DNA from: Candidatus Tectomicrobia bacterium
GTDB lineage: Bacteria; UBA8248
Direction: 5' to 3'
Assembly: GCA_016192135.1 (NCBI GenBank)
Contig: JACPUR010000013.1
Coordinates: 62,001 to 126,000, forward strand
Length of the DNA stretch: 64,000 nt
Made by a program: the position numbers and the translations under genes. Shown in pieces: positions 15,840 to 29,130 of the stretch (the first letter of the stretch is position 1; each line of letters opens with the position of its first letter). The notes beneath the pieces were generated by a model. It saw only the letters and a program-made list of their open reading frames with translations, searched no databases and had not been told where the DNA came from.

Positions 15840-17456
15840 ATGATTACGGCTCTCGACTATGGAATCTTGTTCCTCTATTTCGCCGGGATGATCGCGCTGT
15901 CGGTCTTCCTCGGCCGCCGGTACGCCGGCCGGAAGGATTACTTCCTCGGGGGCCAGCGCATCCCGGACTGGGCCATCGCCGCCTCCATCATGGCCACCCA
16001 GGCCAGCGTCATCAGCATGATCAGCGCCCCCGCCTTCGTGGCCGTGCGCCCGGGCGGAGGCCTCATTTGGATTCAGTACGAGTTCGCCCTCCCGCTCGCC
16101 ATGATCCTCGTGATGGCGGTCCTCGCCCCCTACTTCTACAGGGCCAAGATCATCACCGTGTACGAGTACCTGGAGCGCCGCTTCGACGCCCGCACGCGGG
16201 CCGTGTTCAGCCTGGTGTTCCAGCTCAGCCGCGCCCTGGCCACGGGGGTCGCCATCTATGCCGCGGCGATCCTGCTGTCCATCATCCTGGACACCCCGCT
16301 GTGGGCCTCCATCCTGCTGATGGGGTCCATCTCGATCGTCTACACGACCATCGGCGGCATCTCGGCCGACATCTGGAGCGACGTGATCCAGCTCGTCCTC
16401 CTTTGGGCGGGGACGTTCGTCGTCCTGTGGTTTGCCGTCGCGGCGGGCGGGGGCTGGACGGAGGTGATCGCCCACATCCCGGCCGAGCGGTTCCGCGCGG
16501 TGGACTTCGCCTCGCATGGAATCGGCGACGGCAGGACGTTCGGCTTCTGGCCGATGGTGCTGGGAGGTTTTTTCCTCTACGCCTCCTACTACGGATGCGA
16601 CCAGAGCCAGATTCAAAGGGTGCTATGCGCGGAATCGGAGCGGAAGGCGCGCCGCGCCCTGTGGCTGAACGGGCTGTGGCGCTTCCCGCTGGTGCTCTCC
16701 TACTGCCTGGTGGGCCTGGTCATGGCCGGCTTCGTGGTGAAGGAGCCCACCTTCACGGCCTCCATCCCGGAGGACCACCTCGACTACATGATCCCCCTCT
16801 TCATCAAGCACTACGTCCCGCCGGGCCTGACGGGGCTCATCCTGGCGGGGATGTTCGCCGCGGTCATGTCCAGCATCGATTCCGCCTTCAACTCCCTCTC
16901 GGCCGCCAGCGTCCAGGACGTCTACGTCCGCTACGTCAACCCCAGCGCCACGGAACGCCAGTGCCTCTTCTGGTCGCGCGCCGCCACGGCCATCTGGGGC
17001 GTCCTGTGCACGGGGCTCGCCTTTTGGGTGGGGAACCTGGCCCCGACGGTCATCGAGGGGATCAACAAGATCGGCTCCGCCTTCTACGGGCCGACGCTCG
17101 CCGCCTTCTTGGTCGCGATTCTCAGCCGGCGGGCGACGGGGAACGGTGTGGTCTGGGGGCTTGCGTGCGGGGTGGGGCTGAACATCGTCCTGTGGGCCGG
17201 GTACGACGATTCCGTCTCCTGGCTATGGTGGAACGCCATCGGCTGCGCCGTCACGGTGGCCGTCGCCTCCCTGCCGGCCTTCAGAGGGCCGGGGCTCCCG
17301 CCCGCCCAGGCGGACCAGCTGACGATGAGCTGGGCGGAGATGCGGAAGGGCTTCTGGGAGGAACGGGCCATGTACGGGTCCCTGGCCTTTTACTTCCTGC
17401 TCATCATCCTCGTCTCATACGGCCTGTGGTTCCTGCAGCCCGGACCGGGCCGGTAG
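15840..17456 (+). CDS. Sodium:solute symporter (SSS family)
   Basis: A 538-residue integral membrane protein with about 13 hydrophobic segments and the SSS-family organisation. The N-terminal part reads FLGRRYAGRKDYFLGG and IPDWAIAASIMATQAS; the core has YYGCDQSQIQR near 245 and GMFAAVMSSIDSAFNSLS near 340. The Ser/Asp-rich helix in the last motif corresponds to the region that contributes to sodium binding in family members. It imports an organic solute (sugar, amino acid or compatible solute) with sodium. The location next to the glucosylglycerate and trehalose genes suggests, but does not show, a role in osmolyte uptake. Confidence 0.92.
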   Translation: MITALDYGILFLYFAGMIALSVFLGRRYAGRKDYFLGGQRIPDWAIAASIMATQASVISMISAPAFVAVRPGGGLIWIQYEFALPLAMILVMAVLAPYFYRAKIITVYEYLERRFDARTRAVFSLVFQLSRALATGVAIYAAAILLSIILDTPLWASILLMGSISIVYTTIGGISADIWSDVIQLVLLWAGTFVVLWFAVAAGGGWTEVIAHIPAERFRAVDFASHGIGDGRTFGFWPMVLGGFFLYASYYGCDQSQIQRVLCAESERKARRALWLNGLWRFPLVLSYCLVGLVMAGFVVKEPTFTASIPEDHLDYMIPLFIKHYVPPGLTGLILAGMFAAVMSSIDSAFNSLSAASVQDVYVRYVNPSATERQCLFWSRAATAIWGVLCTGLAFWVGNLAPTVIEGINKIGSAFYGPTLAAFLVAILSRRATGNGVVWGLACGVGLNIVLWAGYDDSVSWLWWNAIGCAVTVAVASLPAFRGPGLPPAQADQLTMSWAEMRKGFWEERAMYGSLAFYFLLIILVSYGLWFLQPGPGR

Positions 17457-17494: not shown

Positions 17495-18787
17495 TCATGT
17501 GAACGAAGCCTCTACCTGCCGGCCCCACTTCTCGCCGCTCTCCCAGCGGTCGATGAGATAGTCCTTGTGTGTCTCGAAGACCTCGGCCTGCTCCTCCACC
17601 AGGGTCTCGGCCTCCCGGCTGCTCATTTTCTGGGTGTGCGCGACGAAGGAACCCACGCGGGCGTAGTAGAGCGGGCTCATCAAGTCCACGAGCTTGAAGT
17701 GGTGATCGGGCAGGTGGTGGAAGACGGCGGCGAAGTCGTAGAGGATTCGCACCCAGACCTCATCCGGCAAGACGAAATTCCGGACGTTGCGGACGCGCGC
17801 CAGATGGTGAAGCAGCTTGAAGCTCTCCGGATCGATCAAGTCCCGCCACGTGCTCTTGAAGAGATGGAAACCCGTCTGGTAGGCGGAGATGAGCTTGCTC
17901 AGGCTGGCCTGGACCGCCTCGGGCTCCTGCGCCCACAGGTCCACCTGCCCGAAGGAATCCACGGGCTGGCTCCCCCGGATTTTTTTCCAGATGTGCTCGC
18001 TCACGCCCATTATGCGGAAGAGCGTGATCACGACCTGCCGGAACATGAAGCCCAGGTCCGTCGCCGGATCCTTGGCGTCATGCACCTTGAGGCCCAGATT
18101 GGCTTGGCAGATCTTGAAGCCTTGGGTGATGGCCATCGTGGTCATCCAGATGTCGATTCCGTAGCGGGCGACGTCGGTGTCCCACACGTCCTGCTCGGAA
18201 TAATAGCGGGCCAGGGTGTCGCGGAAGCCGAAGTCGCCCCCGATCGGCTGGCGGATGCGCTTGCCGTACAACGCGCGGGTGAGGCTGTAGACGATGTTGT
18301 TCGTGATGGTCCCGTCATACTTGCTGCGGGCGTAGTTCGGCGCGACGAAGTCGTAGCCCTTGACGAGCATGGGATCGAGCAGATAGCGGATCCAGTCCGG
18401 GGTGATGCTCCTCAGGTCCGAGTCGAACACCACGCAACCCTGGGCGCCGAGCCTCTGGACCGCCTCGAAAATGAGCCGGAAGGCGGAGCCCTTGCCGCCG
18501 GGCCCGCGGTAGATGGTGACGATCAGCTCTTGCCAGGGAGCGAGCTCGACCTCACGGGCGACCTCCCGGGTGTCGTCGGTGGAGCCGCCGTCCGAGACGA
18601 TGATCACGGCCCGGAGGCTCTTGTCGTATTCCTTGAGGCCCTTGCTGGCGGTGGAAACGACGTGGGCGATCGTGTCCACGTTGTTGAAGCAGGGGATGCC
18701 GATCACGACATCCGCCTTGCCTATCTGTTCCATCCTGCGCGCGACCGGAGGCCTCATCGCGGAATGTATCTTGCCGAATTTGCCCAT
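17495..18787 (-). CDS. Glycosyltransferase, glucosylglycerate-synthase-like (GT81/GT78-type fold)
   Basis: A 430-residue inverted-repeat-free GT-A protein. The nucleotide-sugar region shows VVIGIPCFNNVDTI (27-40), IVSDGGSTDDT (63-73), GPGGKGSA (95-102) and a metal-binding DSD (122-124). GGDFGFRD near 205 and DTDVARYGIDIWM near 220 resemble acceptor-side motifs of mannosyl- and glucosylglycerate synthases. The C-terminal 150 residues are helical. It starts 18 bases after the phosphatase gene on the same strand and probably shares its transcript. Direct synthesis of glucosylglycerate (from NDP-glucose and glycerate), or extension of it, is inferred from context. Confidence 0.75.
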   Translation of the reverse strand: MGKFGKIHSAMRPPVARRMEQIGKADVVIGIPCFNNVDTIAHVVSTASKGLKEYDKSLRAVIIVSDGGSTDDTREVAREVELAPWQELIVTIYRGPGGKGSAFRLIFEAVQRLGAQGCVVFDSDLRSITPDWIRYLLDPMLVKGYDFVAPNYARSKYDGTITNNIVYSLTRALYGKRIRQPIGGDFGFRDTLARYYSEQDVWDTDVARYGIDIWMTTMAITQGFKICQANLGLKVHDAKDPATDLGFMFRQVVITLFRIMGVSEHIWKKIRGSQPVDSFGQVDLWAQEPEAVQASLSKLISAYQTGFHLFKSTWRDLIDPESFKLLHHLARVRNVRNFVLPDEVWVRILYDFAAVFHHLPDHHFKLVDLMSPLYYARVGSFVAHTQKMSSREAETLVEEQAEVFETHKDYLIDRWESGEKWGRQVEASFT

Positions 18788-18805
18788 TCGCCCCTCTCGC
18801 TGCGA

Positions 18806-19651
18806 TTAACTTCCGGACAATAAAGGCTCCAGGTTCAATTCGCGGAACAAATCCTCCACGCCGGCCTTCCAGCCGGCGGGGCCGGGCGCGGGAGCCACCC
18901 GGACGCCGGGCACCGCGGCGAGCTCGGGCCTGAGCCCCTCTTTCGCGGGAATGGCGACGGCGCGGTCCGCCCAGCGCAGGAGCGGTAAATCGTTCGGGCC
19001 GTCCCCGATCCCTATCGTGAGGACGCCGCCGGTCTTCCGCCGGTACATGTCCGCGAGGCGGGCCGCCGCCGTTCCTTTATCGAAGGATCCCGTCAGGTGG
19101 TGAAACCGCCCCCCCCGGGCGTAGCGGAGCCCCTTGGAGCCCGCCCACTCCCGGACGGGGGCCAAGTCCTCCGCCGCCGTCCCGCCGGTCCGGATGAACG
19201 GAACGCTGGCCCGGCGATCCCGCATCCTGGGAATCCAGCCGGCCGGCAGCGAGGTCAGCCTCTGGAGCTCGGCGTCGTCCATCTCGAAATATGCGCGCAG
19301 AGGAAGGGCCAGCGCCCGCCGCATCTCAAGGAACGCCTCCCGGAGCGCCTCCACAGGCGGCCCGAGGGTTTGTACGCTGTAGCCCCCCTCCTCCCGGGAG
19401 CCGTCCGGCGCATCCGGGAAAAGGCCGGCCGGGCAGAAGAGGACGCCTCCCCCCTCGGCGATGAACGGATCGGCCAGGCCGAGGTTTGTTACGTAACCTT
19501 CGATCTCGGCGCCGGTCTTCGAAGAGGTGAGGATGAGGGCGGCGCCGCTCTTCCGCAGGTCCTGGGCGGTCTTGCGCGCCTCATCCATTCCGTAGGTGTC
19601 ATGGTCGAGGAGTGAGCCGTCGAGGTCTGAAAAAACCAGGATTTTCCGCAA
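18806..19651 (-). CDS. HAD-family mannosyl/glucosyl-3-phosphoglycerate phosphatase
   Basis: A 281-residue HAD-IIB protein, the usual length for MPGP/YedP phosphatases. It has the nucleophile motif FSDLDGSLL with Asp9 and Asp11, motif II ILTSSK, a Lys in FDKG and motif III/IV GIGDGPNDLPLL near 220. The start must be TTG at 19651 because no ATG or GTG fits before motif I; GGAG lies ten bases upstream. It should remove the phosphate from glucosyl-3-phosphoglycerate made by the divergent GpgS, yielding glucosylglycerate. Mannosyl specificity cannot be excluded from sequence. Confidence 0.87.
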   Translation of the reverse strand: MRKILVFSDLDGSLLDHDTYGMDEARKTAQDLRKSGAALILTSSKTGAEIEGYVTNLGLADPFIAEGGGVLFCPAGLFPDAPDGSREEGGYSVQTLGPPVEALREAFLEMRRALALPLRAYFEMDDAELQRLTSLPAGWIPRMRDRRASVPFIRTGGTAAEDLAPVREWAGSKGLRYARGGRFHHLTGSFDKGTAAARLADMYRRKTGGVLTIGIGDGPNDLPLLRWADRAVAIPAKEGLRPELAAVPGVRVAPAPGPAGWKAGVEDLFRELNLEPLLSGS

Positions 19652-19955
19652 GTCGCATGAACTCCAGCGATAAAAAACAAGGCGGAGGCCGGATTTTCCA
19701 CGAATGGGCGTCCAGCTTTCGCTTCCATGAGTGTAAAAAAAGTTTCCCGCCCCTGTAAAGACACCTTCTTGCGCTATTTGTTTGGATATCCTAGAATTCG
19801 CCCCGTCTTTAGCCCCGGGGCATGGCCTTTCCGGGGCATGGCCTTTCCGGGGCGCTCCTGGCCCACCGCCTTTTAAATACATGATCCGGCGCGACTGCCT
19901 GCTGCATATCAAAGCCGGTCCTTTATCTCCGCTGCCCAACGATGAGAGAACTCCC
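19652..19955. promoter_or_regulatory. Divergent control region of the glucosylglycerate genes
   Basis: These 304 bases separate the phosphatase (minus) and gpgS (plus). A good sigma-70-like pair reads toward gpgS: TTGCGC at 19769-19774 and TAGAAT at 19792-19797 with 17 bases between. That would start RNA near 19804 and leave a leader of about 150 bases containing a tandem repeat. The stretch near 19665-19760 has A/T runs and probably holds the opposite promoter, though no clear boxes were found. No gene is seen. Confidence 0.45.
19815..19853. repeat. 16-bp tandem repeat in the gpgS leader
   Basis: The unit CCGGGGCATGGCCTTT occurs at 19815-19830 and 19831-19846 without change, followed by a partial third copy (CCGGGGC). 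CCGGGG and CCTTTCC alternate, so the repeat can vary by slippage. It lies downstream of the predicted gpgS promoter and about 100 bases before the start codon. Confidence 0.8.
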
Positions 19956-21215
19956 ATGGCAGATTTCTTCCAGAACGGCGTCATCACCACCCTGAATAAA
20001 ATCCGCACCGATAATGTGGAAAGGCTGGAGGCGCAGTTGCGCCGCTTCAATGAGGTCAGTCCCATCTCCTTGCTGCTCCCCTGCCTCTACAGCGAACTGG
20101 AAGGTCCCGCCCTCCGGAATATCGTGGACGTCCTCTCGAAGGTGGATTACCTCGACGAGATCGTGGTGGTGCTGGGCCGTGCGCACACCTCCGAGTTCCT
20201 CCATGCCATCGATTTCTTCTCCCCGCTCCGCAATTGCACGATCCTCTGGCTGGACAGTCCTCGGATGAAGGCGATCTTCAAGCTTCTCGACGAGAACGAG
20301 ATCCAGGTGAACATACCGGGAAAGGGACAGGCGGTCTGGATCGGCATCGGCTACATCCTGGGCAAACGCCGGGCCGACACCATCGTCCTTCACGATTGCG
20401 ACATCCTGACCTACGACAGCGGGTTCATCGCCCGGCTGTGCTATCCGATCGCCAACCCGAGCTTCGATTACGAGTTCACCAAGGGCTTCTACGCGCGGGC
20501 CTCGAACCGCCTGAACGGGCGGGCTTCCCGGCTGCTCGTCAACCCGCTGAGCCGGGCCCTCCGCCACCACGCGGGCCAGGGAGGGAAGCATCCCTTCCTC
20601 GACTACCTGGACAGCTTCCGTTATGCGCTGGCCGGGGAGATGGCCATCCGGCGCGAACTGGCCCGCATCAATCGCATCCCCATGGATTGGGGCCTTGAAG
20701 TGGGCACCTTGGCGGAAGTCTTCCGCAACTCCTCGACCAAGCGCGTCTGCCAGGTGGAAGTATGCGACGTCTATGACCACAAGCATCAGGACCTCTCCGC
20801 GGACGATCCGGGGGGCGGTCTCTTCCGCATGAGCATCGACATCACCCGTTCCATCCTCTACACCCTGGCGTCGGAGGGCGTCTCCTTCTCGGCCGGCTTC
20901 ATCCGCTCCCTGACGGCCGCCTATCTCCGGAACGCGCAGGACGCCATCGTCCACTACCACGCGGTGGCGAGCTACAACGGCTTCCAGTTCGACCGCCATG
21001 CCGAAGAGACGGCGATCGAAACCTTCGCGGAGGGAATCAAGATCGCCTGCGAGGTTTTCCTGCAGGAACCTCTGGAGTCCCCACAGGCGCCCAATTGGAA
21101 CCGGGTGGCCGCGGCGGTCCCCGGCCTCATGGGCCAACTCGTCCAGGCGGTCGCGGAAGACAACGCCAATCCCAGCGTGGAGATATTGACCGGGGAATTG
21201 AAGGAGCGGGTGTGA
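19956..21215 (+). CDS. gpgS: Glucosyl-3-phosphoglycerate synthase
   Basis: A 419-residue GT-A glycosyltransferase, close to the family's usual length. It has LLLPCLYSELEGPAL (39-53), PGKGQAVWIG (121-130), a metal-binding DCD (147-149) and the acceptor region MDWGLEVGTLAEV near 245-257. It transfers glucose from a nucleotide sugar to 3-phosphoglycerate, the first step of the two-step route to glucosylglycerate, an osmoprotectant. The start at 19956 is chosen from family length; the frame is open further upstream but that would run into the predicted promoter. The ribosome site (GAGAG) is weak. It is divergent from the phosphatase and second glycosyltransferase. Confidence 0.88.
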   Translation: MADFFQNGVITTLNKIRTDNVERLEAQLRRFNEVSPISLLLPCLYSELEGPALRNIVDVLSKVDYLDEIVVVLGRAHTSEFLHAIDFFSPLRNCTILWLDSPRMKAIFKLLDENEIQVNIPGKGQAVWIGIGYILGKRRADTIVLHDCDILTYDSGFIARLCYPIANPSFDYEFTKGFYARASNRLNGRASRLLVNPLSRALRHHAGQGGKHPFLDYLDSFRYALAGEMAIRRELARINRIPMDWGLEVGTLAEVFRNSSTKRVCQVEVCDVYDHKHQDLSADDPGGGLFRMSIDITRSILYTLASEGVSFSAGFIRSLTAAYLRNAQDAIVHYHAVASYNGFQFDRHAEETAIETFAEGIKIACEVFLQEPLESPQAPNWNRVAAAVPGLMGQLVQAVAEDNANPSVEILTGELKERV

Positions 21216-24365: not shown

Positions 24366-27224
24366 ATGAGCCCGCGCCGGAGCGCCCGAGCCGCTCCTCC
24401 CCGACGCATGAAAGCCCCGGCTCTCCCTCCGGGCGCCACCTACCGCATCCAGTTCAACCGCCGCTTCACCCTCGACGATGCCGTTCGAATCTGCCCTTAC
24501 TTGCGGGAACTCGGCATCACCCACCTGTACGCCTCCCCCATCTTCGCCGCCCGCCCGGGAAGCGGGCACGGATACGACGTCATCGATTTCTCCTCCGTCA
24601 ATCCAGAGCTGGGGGGCGAAAAGAGCCTCCGCCGCCTCGTCCGGGCGCTCGCGAAACGGGACATGAGCCTCCTGCTGGATATCGTCCCCAACCACATGTG
24701 CATCGCCCACGAGGGAAACCTTTGGTGGCAGGACGTCCTTGAGAACGGCCGCTCCTCCTCCTACGCCGAGTTTTTCGCCATCGAATGGGAGCCCCCCCAG
24801 AAGGAGCTCCGCCGGCGCGCCCTGCTTCCCGTCCTCGGGGCCTCGCTCCAAGAGGTGCTGCGGAATCGGGAGATCAGGCTTTTCTTCGGCGGCGGAAGCC
24901 TTTGGGCGCGTTACTACACCTCCCGCTTTCCGCTTGCGCCGGACACCTGGCCGCCCATTCTCGATCTGGCGGCCAGTAAGAGCCGGGCGACCCGCGGCGC
25001 CCGATTCCTGCAGGGCCTGAGCCGCATGCTGTCCCGGCTTCCCGATCACTGGAGCGGGCATCCGGAAGAGGCGAGGAAGCGCCGGGACGAGGCCGCCCGC
25101 GTCAAGCGGCGGCTCGGGGCGATCACGCGGCGCGGAGGCGCCCTTCTTCGGGCCCTGGAAGCCGCGCTGGAGGAGATCAATTCGGCGAAAGGCCGCCGCC
25201 TGCTCGCCTCGATTCTCGAGTCCCAGCCTTACCGGCTGGAGTTCTGGCGGGAGGGGCACCGCAGGATCAACTACCGCCGGTTCTTCGACATCAATGAGCT
25301 GGCGGGCCTGAGAGTGGAGCGCCCGGAGGTGTTCGAGGCCGTCCACGGCCTCGTCCTCCGGCTGATGCGCGCGGGGTGGGTGCAGGCCCTCCGGGTGGAT
25401 CACGTGGACGGCCTCTACGACCCGGAGAAGTACCTTCGCGACCTTCGGCGCGCCATCCGGGCCGGCCGCCGAGCAGGCCCCCAGCGCAATCCTTTCATCC
25501 TCGTTGAAAAGATCCTCGCGAGGGACGAAACCCTGCCTCCGCGCTGGCCTGTCCAGGGCACCACCGGCTACGAATTCCTGAACCTGCTGAACGGCGTTTT
25601 CGTGGCGGCGGAGGATGGGGATGCCCTCCGGCGCATCTACGCGCGGTACGCGGGGGAGAGGCGCCCCTTCGGGAAAATCGTGCGCGAGAGCAAGAAGCAT
25701 GTGATCGAAGCCTCCTTCGGAAGCGATGTGAACCGCCTCGCCCGCCTGCTGAATGAGGCGATTTCGGGCCATTCGAAGCGCCTCGGCCTCTCCCAGCTGG
25801 AAAAGGCGCTGTCCGAGCTCCTCGCCGCCTTCAGGGTCTACCGTACCTACGGGCGCGGCGGAAAGCTTTCGGCCGTGGACGCCCGCCGGGTGCGCGAGGC
25901 GGTGCGGGACGCCCAGGCCCATAATTCCCGCCAACGCGGTGTCCTCGCCCGCATCGGAAAGCTCTTGCTCGGCGAAGAGCGCCGGGCCGACCCTTCCCTG
26001 CGGAGGGAGTTCCTCCTGCGCTTCCAGCAGCTGAGCGGGCCGGTCATGGCCAAGGGCTACGAGGATACGGCCCTCTACCGCTACTACCCCCTCGCCTCGC
26101 TGAACGAGGTGGGCGGGGAGCCGGACCGGTTCGGCGGGCCGCTGGAGGAGTTCCACCGGGAGAATCTCAGCCGCCTTCGCCGCTTCCCCCATGGGCTCTC
26201 CGCCACCAGCACGCATGACACCAAGCGGAGCGAGGACGTGCGGGCCCGGCTCGACGTGCTCTCCGAGATTCCGGAGGAGTGGGAGGAGACCATCCGGCGC
26301 TGGCGGACCCTCAACCGGAGGTGGAAATGCCGGATAAAGGGCGCGGAAACCCCCGCCCCGGACGACGAGTACCTCCTGTATCAGACCTTGGCGGGGGCAT
26401 GGCCCTGCGAATCCATGGACGAAGTGGTGCGGTGCGAGTTCACCGGTCGCATCCAGGCGTACACGCAGAAGGCCCTCCGGGAGGCCAAGCGGCGCACCAG
26501 CTGGCTCAATCCGGACGAGTGCTACGAGGAGGCGGTCCGGAGCTTCATCTCCGCCATCCTGAAGCGCGGCCGAGGGAACCTGTTCCTGGAAGAATTCCAG
26601 GAGTTCATGGCGCGCATCATTCGGCCCGGCCTCTATAACTCCCTCTCCCAGACCCTCCTCAAGATCGCCTCGCCGGGGGTGCCGGATTTCTACCAAGGCT
26701 GCGAATCCTTGAGTTTCTCCCTCGTCGATCCCGACAACCGCAGGCCTGTGGATTTCACCCGCCTTCAGCGCGTCCTCGCCCGCATCCGCGGCGCCGCCGA
26801 TTACGCTGCGCTGGCCGGGAGGCTGGCCCGGGCGCCGGAGGACGGCCGCGCCAAGCTTTTCGTGACCTGCCGGGCGCTCGAGGCCCGGCGGAGGCACTCC
26901 GGCCTCTTCGCACGGGGCGCATATCTTGCCGTCAAGGCCGCCGGCAGGCGGAAGGGGCATGTGGTCGCTTTCGCGCGGACGAAGGGGAAAAAAGTCTTCG
27001 TAGCGGCGGCGGGGCATTTTTTCGTACAACTGGATGCAGCGCGCCGACCGCCGGTGGGGGAGGACGCCTGGGAGGATACCGCCCTGCGCCTCGGCCGGAG
27101 GCTCGGCTCGTCCCGCTGGAGGGACTGCCTTACGGGAGAGGAATGCAAGGCCGCCGGCGCCGGCCTCCCCTTGGCGGAGGTTTTCTCCCGGATGCCGGTC
27201 GCCCTGCTGGAGCGGATTTCGTAG
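24366..27224 (+). CDS. treY: Malto-oligosyltrehalose synthase TreY
   Basis: A 952-residue GH13 protein. TreY proteins are usually 700-950 residues. The N-terminus TYRIQFNRRFTLDDA and GSGHGYDVID region is diagnostic, followed by LLLDIVPNHM and the catalytic region LRVDHVDGLYDP near residue 345. The large inserted helical domain typical of TreY follows, then TSTHDTKRSEDVRAR and the C-terminal PGVPDFYQGCE motif. It isomerises the reducing-end bond of maltodextrins to trehalose linkage. It is followed by treZ after 61 bases; together they convert glycogen or maltodextrin to trehalose. No debranching gene (treX) is in the window. Confidence 0.96.
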   Translation: MSPRRSARAAPPRRMKAPALPPGATYRIQFNRRFTLDDAVRICPYLRELGITHLYASPIFAARPGSGHGYDVIDFSSVNPELGGEKSLRRLVRALAKRDMSLLLDIVPNHMCIAHEGNLWWQDVLENGRSSSYAEFFAIEWEPPQKELRRRALLPVLGASLQEVLRNREIRLFFGGGSLWARYYTSRFPLAPDTWPPILDLAASKSRATRGARFLQGLSRMLSRLPDHWSGHPEEARKRRDEAARVKRRLGAITRRGGALLRALEAALEEINSAKGRRLLASILESQPYRLEFWREGHRRINYRRFFDINELAGLRVERPEVFEAVHGLVLRLMRAGWVQALRVDHVDGLYDPEKYLRDLRRAIRAGRRAGPQRNPFILVEKILARDETLPPRWPVQGTTGYEFLNLLNGVFVAAEDGDALRRIYARYAGERRPFGKIVRESKKHVIEASFGSDVNRLARLLNEAISGHSKRLGLSQLEKALSELLAAFRVYRTYGRGGKLSAVDARRVREAVRDAQAHNSRQRGVLARIGKLLLGEERRADPSLRREFLLRFQQLSGPVMAKGYEDTALYRYYPLASLNEVGGEPDRFGGPLEEFHRENLSRLRRFPHGLSATSTHDTKRSEDVRARLDVLSEIPEEWEETIRRWRTLNRRWKCRIKGAETPAPDDEYLLYQTLAGAWPCESMDEVVRCEFTGRIQAYTQKALREAKRRTSWLNPDECYEEAVRSFISAILKRGRGNLFLEEFQEFMARIIRPGLYNSLSQTLLKIASPGVPDFYQGCESLSFSLVDPDNRRPVDFTRLQRVLARIRGAADYAALAGRLARAPEDGRAKLFVTCRALEARRRHSGLFARGAYLAVKAAGRRKGHVVAFARTKGKKVFVAAAGHFFVQLDAARRPPVGEDAWEDTALRLGRRLGSSRWRDCLTGEECKAAGAGLPLAEVFSRMPVALLERIS

Positions 27225-27285
27225 TGCTGCGAATGGGAGTCATTCGTCTTCATCATTGCACCGCAAGAAAACGAGGAATCGCTCC

Positions 27286-29130
27286 ATGAGCGACGCTCAT
27301 AAGCCGCTCGGCGCAACCTGCCTGGGAGACGGCCGGTGCGAATTTTGTCTCTGGGCTCCGGCCGTGGAGCGGGTGGAGGTCCGGCTCGTGGGGCCGGACG
27401 ACCGCATCCTTCGGCTTTTCCGGGAGGAGAACGGCTACCACCACGTCATCGCCGAGGGGGTGCAGCCGGGCGCGCGGTATCTCTACCGCCTGGACGGCGA
27501 GAAGGAGCGGCCCGACCCCGCCTCGCGCTTCCAGCCCGAGGGCGTCCACGGACCCTCGGAGGTGACGGACGCCTCCTTCGCCTGGACGGATGCCGGGTGG
27601 AAGGGCATCCCCCTGGGCGACTACATCCTCTATGAGCTCCACGTGGGGACTTTCTCCGGCGAGGGCACCTTCGGCGCGGTCATCCCCTTCCTGGACGGGC
27701 TGAAGGAACTGGGCGTCACCGCCGTCGAGATCATGCCTGTCGCGCAGTTCCCGGGAGAGCGGAACTGGGGCTATGACGGCGTCTATCCCTTCGCCGTCCA
27801 GAACTCCTACGGGGGCCCCGAGGGGCTGAAGCGCCTGGTCGACGCCTGCCACGCCCGGGGGCTCGCCGCCGTCCTCGACGTCGTCTACAACCACCTCGGC
27901 CCGGAGGGGAACTACACCCGGGACTTCTCCCCCCTCTATTTCAATCCGGCCTACCACACGCCATGGGGCGCCGCGCTCAACTTCGACGGGCCGGGGAGCG
28001 ACGAGGTGCGCCGCTTCTTCATCGAGAACGCCCTGTACTGGGTCCGGGACTTCCGCTTCGACGCCCTGCGCCTGGACGCCGTCCACGCCATCCTGGACAC
28101 CTCCGCCCGTCCCTTCCTGGAGGAGCTGGGCGAGGCCGTCCACCGGCAGGGGGAGGCCGAAGGCCGGAAAATCTATCTCATGCCCGAGAGCGACCAGAAC
28201 GACCCCCGGCTCGTGACGCCCCGGGAGGAGGGAGGCCATGGGCTGGACGCGGTGTGGACGGATGACTTCCACCACGCCTTGCACGCCGCGCTCACGGGGG
28301 AGCGCGGGGGTTACTACGCCGACTTCGGCCGCCTGGCGGACCTCGCCAAGGCCTTCCGGGAAGGCTTCGTGCACTCTGGCGGCTACTCGCGCTACCGCAA
28401 GCGCCGGCACGGAAGGAGCGCCCGCCATCTCCCCGCCTTTCGCCACGTCGTCTGCGCCCAGAACCACGACCAGGTGGGCAACCGGATGCGGGGGGAGCGC
28501 CTGAGCGCCCTCGTCCCCTTCGAGAAACTCAAGATGGCGGCGGGGCTCGTGCTGCTCTCGCCCTTTCTCCCTCTCCTGTTCATGGGGGAGGAGTACGGGG
28601 AGACCGCTCCCTTCCTCTATTTCGTCAGCCATACGGATTCCGGCCTCATCGAAGCGGTCCGGAAGGGCCGGGCGGAGGAGTTCTCCTCCTTCGGCTGGCG
28701 GGAGACGCCACCCGACCCGCAGGGCGAGGCGGCCTTCCTGCGCTCGAAGCTCCAACACCGCCTCATGGACGAGGACATGCACAAGAAGCTGCGCGAATTC
28801 CACCGGGCCCTCATCAGGCTTCGGCGCGGGTCCCCCGCCTTGTCCCGCCTCCGCAAGGAAGACCTGGAAATCCAAGCGTTCGAGGAGCGGAAGGTGCTGC
28901 TCCTCCGCCGCCGGGGCGGGGGAGAGGAGGCGGCGGCCGTCTTTCATTTCGGCGAATCGGAAGGCTCGTTTCCCCTCCCCGGCGGCCCTTGGACAAAGAA
29001 GCTCGCCTCCGCCGACGCCCGGTGGGGAGGGCACGGGACGAAGATGGCCGACGGGGACATCGCCCGGGAAGGCGAAGGGCTGGGCCTCCCGCCCCACTCG
29101 TTCTTCCTTTTCACCAAAAGCCTTGCGTAG
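27286..29130 (+). CDS. treZ: Malto-oligosyltrehalose trehalohydrolase TreZ
   Basis: A 614-residue GH13 enzyme starting at the ATG 27286 (GAGGAA upstream), the family's usual size. It has an N-terminal CBM48-like sandwich (CEFCLWAPAVERVEV), then LYELHVGTFSGEGTF near 118, VYNHLGPEGNYT near 205, the catalytic Asp in FDALRLDAVHAI near 260 and AQNHDQVGNR near 390. A C-terminal beta domain ends the protein. It releases trehalose from maltooligosyl-trehalose made by the upstream TreY. A 181-base gap with no clear terminator separates it from the next gene. Confidence 0.95.
   Translation: MSDAHKPLGATCLGDGRCEFCLWAPAVERVEVRLVGPDDRILRLFREENGYHHVIAEGVQPGARYLYRLDGEKERPDPASRFQPEGVHGPSEVTDASFAWTDAGWKGIPLGDYILYELHVGTFSGEGTFGAVIPFLDGLKELGVTAVEIMPVAQFPGERNWGYDGVYPFAVQNSYGGPEGLKRLVDACHARGLAAVLDVVYNHLGPEGNYTRDFSPLYFNPAYHTPWGAALNFDGPGSDEVRRFFIENALYWVRDFRFDALRLDAVHAILDTSARPFLEELGEAVHRQGEAEGRKIYLMPESDQNDPRLVTPREEGGHGLDAVWTDDFHHALHAALTGERGGYYADFGRLADLAKAFREGFVHSGGYSRYRKRRHGRSARHLPAFRHVVCAQNHDQVGNRMRGERLSALVPFEKLKMAAGLVLLSPFLPLLFMGEEYGETAPFLYFVSHTDSGLIEAVRKGRAEEFSSFGWRETPPDPQGEAAFLRSKLQHRLMDEDMHKKLREFHRALIRLRRGSPALSRLRKEDLEIQAFEERKVLLLRRRGGGEEAAAVFHFGESEGSFPLPGGPWTKKLASADARWGGHGTKMADGDIAREGEGLGLPPHSFFLFTKSLA

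Follow-up and report, generated by a model that had tools for sequence, protein, structure and literature searches.

A Candidatus Tectomicrobia locus with probable genes for two routes to glucosylglycerate, one in two steps and one in a single step

The pairing of two routes to glucosylglycerate in one organism is already known from Persephonella marina. The Ggs of this bacterium reportedly joins ADP-glucose-derived glucose and D-glycerate to glucosylglycerate in a single step, and its gene is said to be clustered, much as in an operon, with gpgS and gpgP. Petrotoga mobilis is said to combine Ggs with GpgS/MggA pathways in the formation of mannosylglucosylglycerate (reportedly described by Fernandes et al. 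2010). Both routes are reported for P. marina in two titles from 2007, the second of which concerns GpgS and GpgP (Fernandes et al. 2007 J Bacteriol 189:4014; Costa et al. 2007 J Bacteriol 189:1648; listed in PMC3899277), and the Enzyme Commission (EC) numbers 2.4.1.266 (GpgS) and 2.4.1.268 (Ggs) are given in the same source. The present analysis concerns positions 17495-21215 of a 64,000-nucleotide window, that is, the whole stretch of Candidatus Tectomicrobia DNA under study, to which all coordinates refer and in which open reading frames were called by program. A first-pass annotation had placed three genes here, for two glycosyltransferases and a phosphatase; all three frames were found at those positions and each matched a family (Table 1). 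We put the probability that the two-step and the one-step route are both encoded here, as in P. marina, at about three in four.

The substrates, the product in this organism and the cellular use of the two routes are those that we would infer from family, kinship and structure. In the two-step route, GpgS would glucosylate 3-phosphoglycerate with a nucleotide sugar as the donor, after which the phosphatase would strip the phosphate. In the one-step route, the Ggs-type transferase would transfer glucose, probably from ADP-glucose, straight to D-glycerate. The genome has a GlgC (ADP-glucose) at 430.4 bits, over the cut-off of 424.9. Starch synthase, another user of ADP-glucose, was present among the neighbours of related transferases (11 of 113 neighbour open reading frames chosen around 51 loci without a local GpgS), which points to ADP-glucose as the donor.

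Kinship was established by comparison with genome G081, which we take to be P. marina EX-H1, and whose transferase gene beside gpgS presumably encodes the assayed Ggs. Identity between the window and G081 was 49.5% over 412 amino acids for the transferase (417 bits), 45.8% over 406 for GpgS and 31.9% over 273 for the phosphatase. The window transferase was the sole match in its own genome at E<=0.001, while the family profile scored 545 bits on the G081 homologue and 24.5 on the next gene; in the window-to-G081 direction, therefore, the two transferases behave as orthologues. In G081 a phosphatase, a glycerate kinase, the 417-residue transferase homologue and GpgS are consecutive; the kinase was called from the Pfam domains DUF4147 and MOFRL, a combination that we take to denote this enzyme, and a homologue of it (299 bits) occurs on another contig of the window's own genome. 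A Hydrogenothermaceae match (L117) pointed to the family of Persephonella, where the transferase was found in 22 of 41 genomes and GpgS in 23 of 41. All 22 genomes with the transferase had a copy beside GpgS, although the copy was partial in G061 and broken in G094.

The sequence of the transferase did not by itself disclose its class. It matched the general Pfam model Glycos_transf_2 (43.2 bits, cut-off 23.3), but Pfam and NCBIfam searches returned no specific family name, and the score against the GpgS model NF010496 (63 bits) fell short of its cut-off (262). Indeed, the sequence was slightly closer to GpgS (45 bits) than to mannosylglycerate synthase (MGS; 35 bits), with which it shared 16-17% identity. 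The first-pass annotation had proposed a structural comparison, which was carried out against solved structures using an AlphaFold2 model built from a 72-sequence alignment (predicted local distance difference test, pLDDT, 92.1; predicted template modelling score, pTM, 0.90). The best solved structure was MGS, which matched residues 27-413 (Z = 35.5, 359 aligned residues, root-mean-square deviation 3.1), such that the model adopts the full-length fold of this GT78 enzyme. GpgS matched over 226 residues, mostly in the GT-A part (Z = 20.8). The second model, of the window GpgS (21-sequence alignment, pLDDT 87.7), was nearest to the GT81 GpgS of M. hassiacum (Z = 27.2, 280 residues); mannosyl-3-phosphoglycerate synthases ranked after this, and MGS gave Z = 20.5. 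Predicted structure thereby sorts the two transferases cleanly, the Ggs-type protein with the one-step enzyme and GpgS with the two-step enzyme.

Active site positions were conserved throughout the 72 aligned Ggs-type proteins, in every one of which K99, D122, D124, R154, T160-I161-T162, P181, G183-G184-D185, D212 and H236 were invariant. In M. tuberculosis GpgS the carboxylate of the acceptor is described as being held by the Val186 nitrogen and Thr187, which correspond to Ile138 and Thr139 of MGS (PMC2581804). HMMER alignments placed the invariant Ile161 and Thr162 of the window transferase at these positions. The preceding residue differed: Thr160 in all 72 Ggs-type proteins, as opposed to arginine in all 21 aligned GpgS_Meth proteins, and the same arginine (in the motif GRVTEL) is present in the solved mycobacterial GpgS. 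This arginine might mark enzymes that accept phosphorylated acceptors; the phosphate itself is described as disordered in the mycobacterial structure (PMC2581804).

The remaining two genes fit the two-step route. The phosphatase scored 214.5 bits against TIGR01486, the mannosyl-3-phosphoglycerate phosphatase family (cut-off 164.75), placing it among the mannosyl- and glucosyl-3-phosphoglycerate phosphatases, and its solved relatives were mannosyl-3-phosphoglycerate phosphatases. The window GpgS matched NF040724 (GpgS_Meth) at 338 bits (E = 5.9e-101), under the model cut-off of 700 bits. However, the GpgS of G081 scored 363 bits, and none of the genomes searched with NF040724 reached 700; the cut-off is therefore a poor test, and its being missed was rejected as an argument against GpgS identity. 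By kinship and fold, the gene was filed as a putative GpgS (EC 2.4.1.266).

The association between Ggs-type transferases and GpgS extended well beyond this locus. A search of genome contigs with a seven-member transferase alignment found at least 578 relatives, of which the best 80 loci were kept; these came from Thermodesulfobacteriota, Myxococcota, Aminicenantes, Planctomycetota, Spirochaetota, Nitrospirota, Actinomycetota, Aquificota and others. GpgS was nearby in 29 of the 80 loci (25 of GpgS_Meth type, 4 of mycobacterial type), a phosphatase was present in 25 (one of these, L068, has a 54-bit match truncated at the contig end and was added by hand), and all three genes occurred together in 22, L068 among them. 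These counts are lower bounds, given that 32 of the 80 loci have less than 3 kb on one side. Among the 51 loci at which no GpgS was nearby, the L117 genome possessed one at 388.6 bits, and for the other 50 loci, from 49 genomes, GpgS was sought genome-wide. This identified a strong GpgS_Meth match in 22 genomes (>=265 bits) and a weaker one in 15 (147-228 bits); the latter were mostly longer proteins (~460-490 residues) or split genes, and so are more distant kin, and in 7 of the 15 (G112, G113, G117, G126, G130, G134, G140) a TIGR01486 phosphatase adjoined the match. Of the last 12 genomes, three had a mycobacterial-type GpgS above cut-off, four had a GT81-like gene scoring 85-101 bits, and in five (G109, G119, G128, G144, G145) the whole-genome search showed no convincing GpgS. 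As a control, NF040724 gave a match in 3 of 14 well-known genomes.

Closer to the window, among its own genome and 60 sampled relatives, the transferase (>=205 bits) occurred in 7 of 61, GpgS_Meth (>100 bits) in 5 and both in 3, a co-occurrence with Fisher p = 0.009 when ancestry is ignored. One relative carries a 735-residue fusion (L014, 505-2709, of G037), in which a mycobacterial-type GT81 GpgS (361 bits, above cut-off) is joined to a Ggs-type transferase. The pairing of Ggs-type transferase and GpgS thus recurs in many phyla. In a transferase tree (88 rows, short search, no outgroup), the window protein lay on a long branch near sequences from Thermodesulfobacteriota, Myxococcota and Aminicenantes, its exact place being unsure, and the P. 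marina protein lay in a neighbouring part.

The first-pass annotation had left two roles for the transferase, a parallel one-step route or extension of the product to a di-glucosyl form. The former was strengthened by the kinship with the G081 transferase beside gpgS, by the full-length match to MGS and by synteny, and on these grounds of sequence, structure and synteny the one-step route is favoured. The alternative is that the transferase works in series with GpgS, adding a sugar to glucosylglycerate or glucosyl-3-phosphoglycerate so that a di-glucosyl or a mannosylglucosyl compound results, its phosphorylated form being the substrate of the adjacent phosphatase. This seems unlikely, though several observations speak for it: GpgS was nearby in 29 of 80 loci and elsewhere in 37 of the 49 other genomes, the fusion exists, the phosphatase gene sits beside that of the transferase and diverges from gpgS, and P. 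marina also accumulates glucosyl-glucosylglycerate, according to a title (Lamosa et al. 2013, in PMC10077225). Against these stands the model, which matches a one-step enzyme along its full length. Furthermore, the P. marina Ggs reportedly makes glucosylglycerate itself, and in Petrotoga the second sugar is reportedly added by other proteins. There is a similarly small chance that Ggs acts in vivo on, or is channelled with, the products of GpgS, for example by adding a second glucose to give glucosyl-glucosylglycerate, one-step synthesis being a side activity in vitro. On this reading, the frequent GpgS company in many phyla, the fusion and the probable Ggs-phosphatase operon would mean that Ggs is more than a backup.

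That the transferase is a one-step MGS, such that the locus makes mannosylglycerate as well as glucosylglycerate, is improbable. MGS is its nearest solved structure, and its donor loop, QPIGGD, carries the glycine that section 13 of PMC2581804 associates with room for mannose. However, the loop of the G081 homologue is identical, and identity is much higher to that protein than to MGS; the starch synthase neighbours also favour ADP-glucose. Since the GpgS of M. hassiacum has glycine at the same place, reading donor specificity from the loop was rejected. Least credible of all, to the point of being negligible, is the reading of the protein as an ordinary family 2 glycosyltransferase that serves polysaccharide or polyprenyl-phosphate synthesis, for which the general nature of the Pfam match might be cited. 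The polyprenyl-phosphate transferases ArnC, GtrB and dolichyl-phosphate mannose synthase gave Z-scores of 16-17, compared with 35.5 for MGS, and the query TM-score was 0.38 for hyaluronan synthase but 0.66-0.68 for MGS. These values led to the rejection of such an identity, and linkage to GpgS and phosphatase in several phyla also opposes it; the unrelated lineage, such as polysaccharide synthases, that the first-pass annotation had named as fatal to its proposal was not where the protein fell.

Several observations nonetheless weigh against two parallel routes to glucosylglycerate. The window transferase gave no match to Pfam MGS_GT (PF21969) at E<=0.1, whereas its G081 homologue scored 37.3 bits, over the cut-off of 27. 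The mannose-associated glycine of the donor loop belongs here too, with the qualification that a GpgS shares it, and both the identity of G081 as P. marina and the biochemistry of its Ggs are assumptions. In G144 and G145 (loci L097 and L098) a phosphatase adjoins the transferase but no convincing GpgS was found, which leaves the substrate of that phosphatase without explanation, and in two relatives with incomplete genomes, G048 and G023, the transferase occurs while no GpgS exceeds a cut-off. Finally, frequent GpgS company and the existence of a fusion exceed what a purely redundant route would need.

Table 1. Coordinates and properties of the locus and neighbouring features within the window
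Feature	Position	Strand	Description
Sodium:solute symporter	15840-17456	+	TIGR00813, 233.8 bits; convergent with the Ggs gene, 38 bases separating the two ends
Ggs-type glycosyltransferase	17495-18787	-	430 amino acids, ATG start; GT-A fold and helical C-terminal domain (model); probable one-step glucosylglycerate synthase
Mannosyl/glucosyl-3-phosphoglycerate phosphatase family (HAD-IIB), GpgP-like	18806-19651	-	281 amino acids from a putative TTG start at 19651; TIGR01486
Divergent intergenic region	19652-19955	.	304 bases; contains one sequence resembling a promoter (minus strand, 19759-19730)
Putative GpgS of GpgS_Meth type	19956-21215	+	419 amino acids, ATG at 19956 inside the 19782-21215 open reading frame; NF040724 and structure
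TreY	24366-27224	+	TIGR02401, over cut-off
TreZ	27034-29130	+	TIGR02402, over cut-off

The arrangement of the three genes suggests two transcription units. The spacing of 18 bases between the phosphatase and transferase genes, remarked upon in the first-pass annotation, agreed with the coordinates; these two genes share the minus strand, a Shine-Dalgarno-like GAGAGGGG precedes the ATG of the transferase, and together they probably form one operon. The full open reading frame of the phosphatase is 18806-20065, and the TTG was taken as its start because the part of the frame upstream overlaps the divergent gpgS. A promoter-like TTTACA-18-TACACT is oriented toward the phosphatase; this is a consensus match only, two such being found in 4 kb where 0.4 were expected from shuffles. 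The gpgS gene, whose start is separated from that of the phosphatase by 304 bases, points away from the pair and therefore stands outside their operon. The intergenic region also contains a short perfect tandem duplication (19817-19848), in which GGGGCATGGCCTTTCC occurs twice. On the other flank, the symporter is possibly a solute importer.

A trehalose route begins downstream, with TreY and TreZ 3 to 8 kb from the locus (both over NCBIfam cut-offs), and since both genes are present a second compatible solute is probably made through it. The window's genus and family contributed 17 other sampled genomes, several of them incomplete; none gave a GpgS_Meth match, and the transferase search gave weak matches only (<=22 bits). 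This near-absence suggests that the locus may have been acquired by transfer.

Some peculiarities were noted at related loci. Proteins resembling mechanosensitive channels, named by eye, flank the transferase in G048 and G037. The G109 genome (L045) has several GT81/Ggs-like genes of ~424-465 residues, which suggests that these are paralogues with other functions. In G018 (L158, 7674-9101) and G041 (L159, 5820-7289), genes for related proteins immediately precede gpgS-ggs, and each genome has a second, weaker copy downstream. The 490-residue protein of G041 had no match in Pfam, NCBIfam (E<=1e-6) or the Protein Data Bank (PDB), and a GT4 transferase label for it was dropped, family searches giving it no support. 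A search of the window's own genome with this protein found nothing, but was made with no control, so that the empty result shows nothing.

The locus adds one more genome predicted to possess both glucosylglycerate routes, next to a trehalose pathway and in a lineage where these genes are missing from the 17 other genomes sampled in the genus and family. That the pairing recurs in many phyla makes it testable why both routes are retained. Beside the systems already described, the window resembles P. marina in that the three gene kinds Ggs, GpgS and GpgP are clustered and both routes would occur in one organism; it is a new instance with a different gene order. In G081, all genes are on one strand and the glycerate kinase lies between the phosphatase and ggs, whereas in the window phosphatase-ggs and gpgS are divergent, and a different contig carries the glycerate-kinase-type gene. 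The genome of Petrotoga mobilis is likewise reported to contain both Ggs and GpgS, but is said to have extra second-sugar transferases. With the MGS of Rhodothermus marinus (GT78) the window transferase has in common the full-length fold and the two glycerate-carboxylate positions; the differences are low sequence identity, mannose as the donor of MGS and the missing Pfam MGS_GT match. With mycobacterial GpgS (GT81) it shares the GT-A domain, the DxD motif and a related donor loop, but has threonine where that enzyme has the arginine of GRVTEL, and the structural match is confined to 226 residues.

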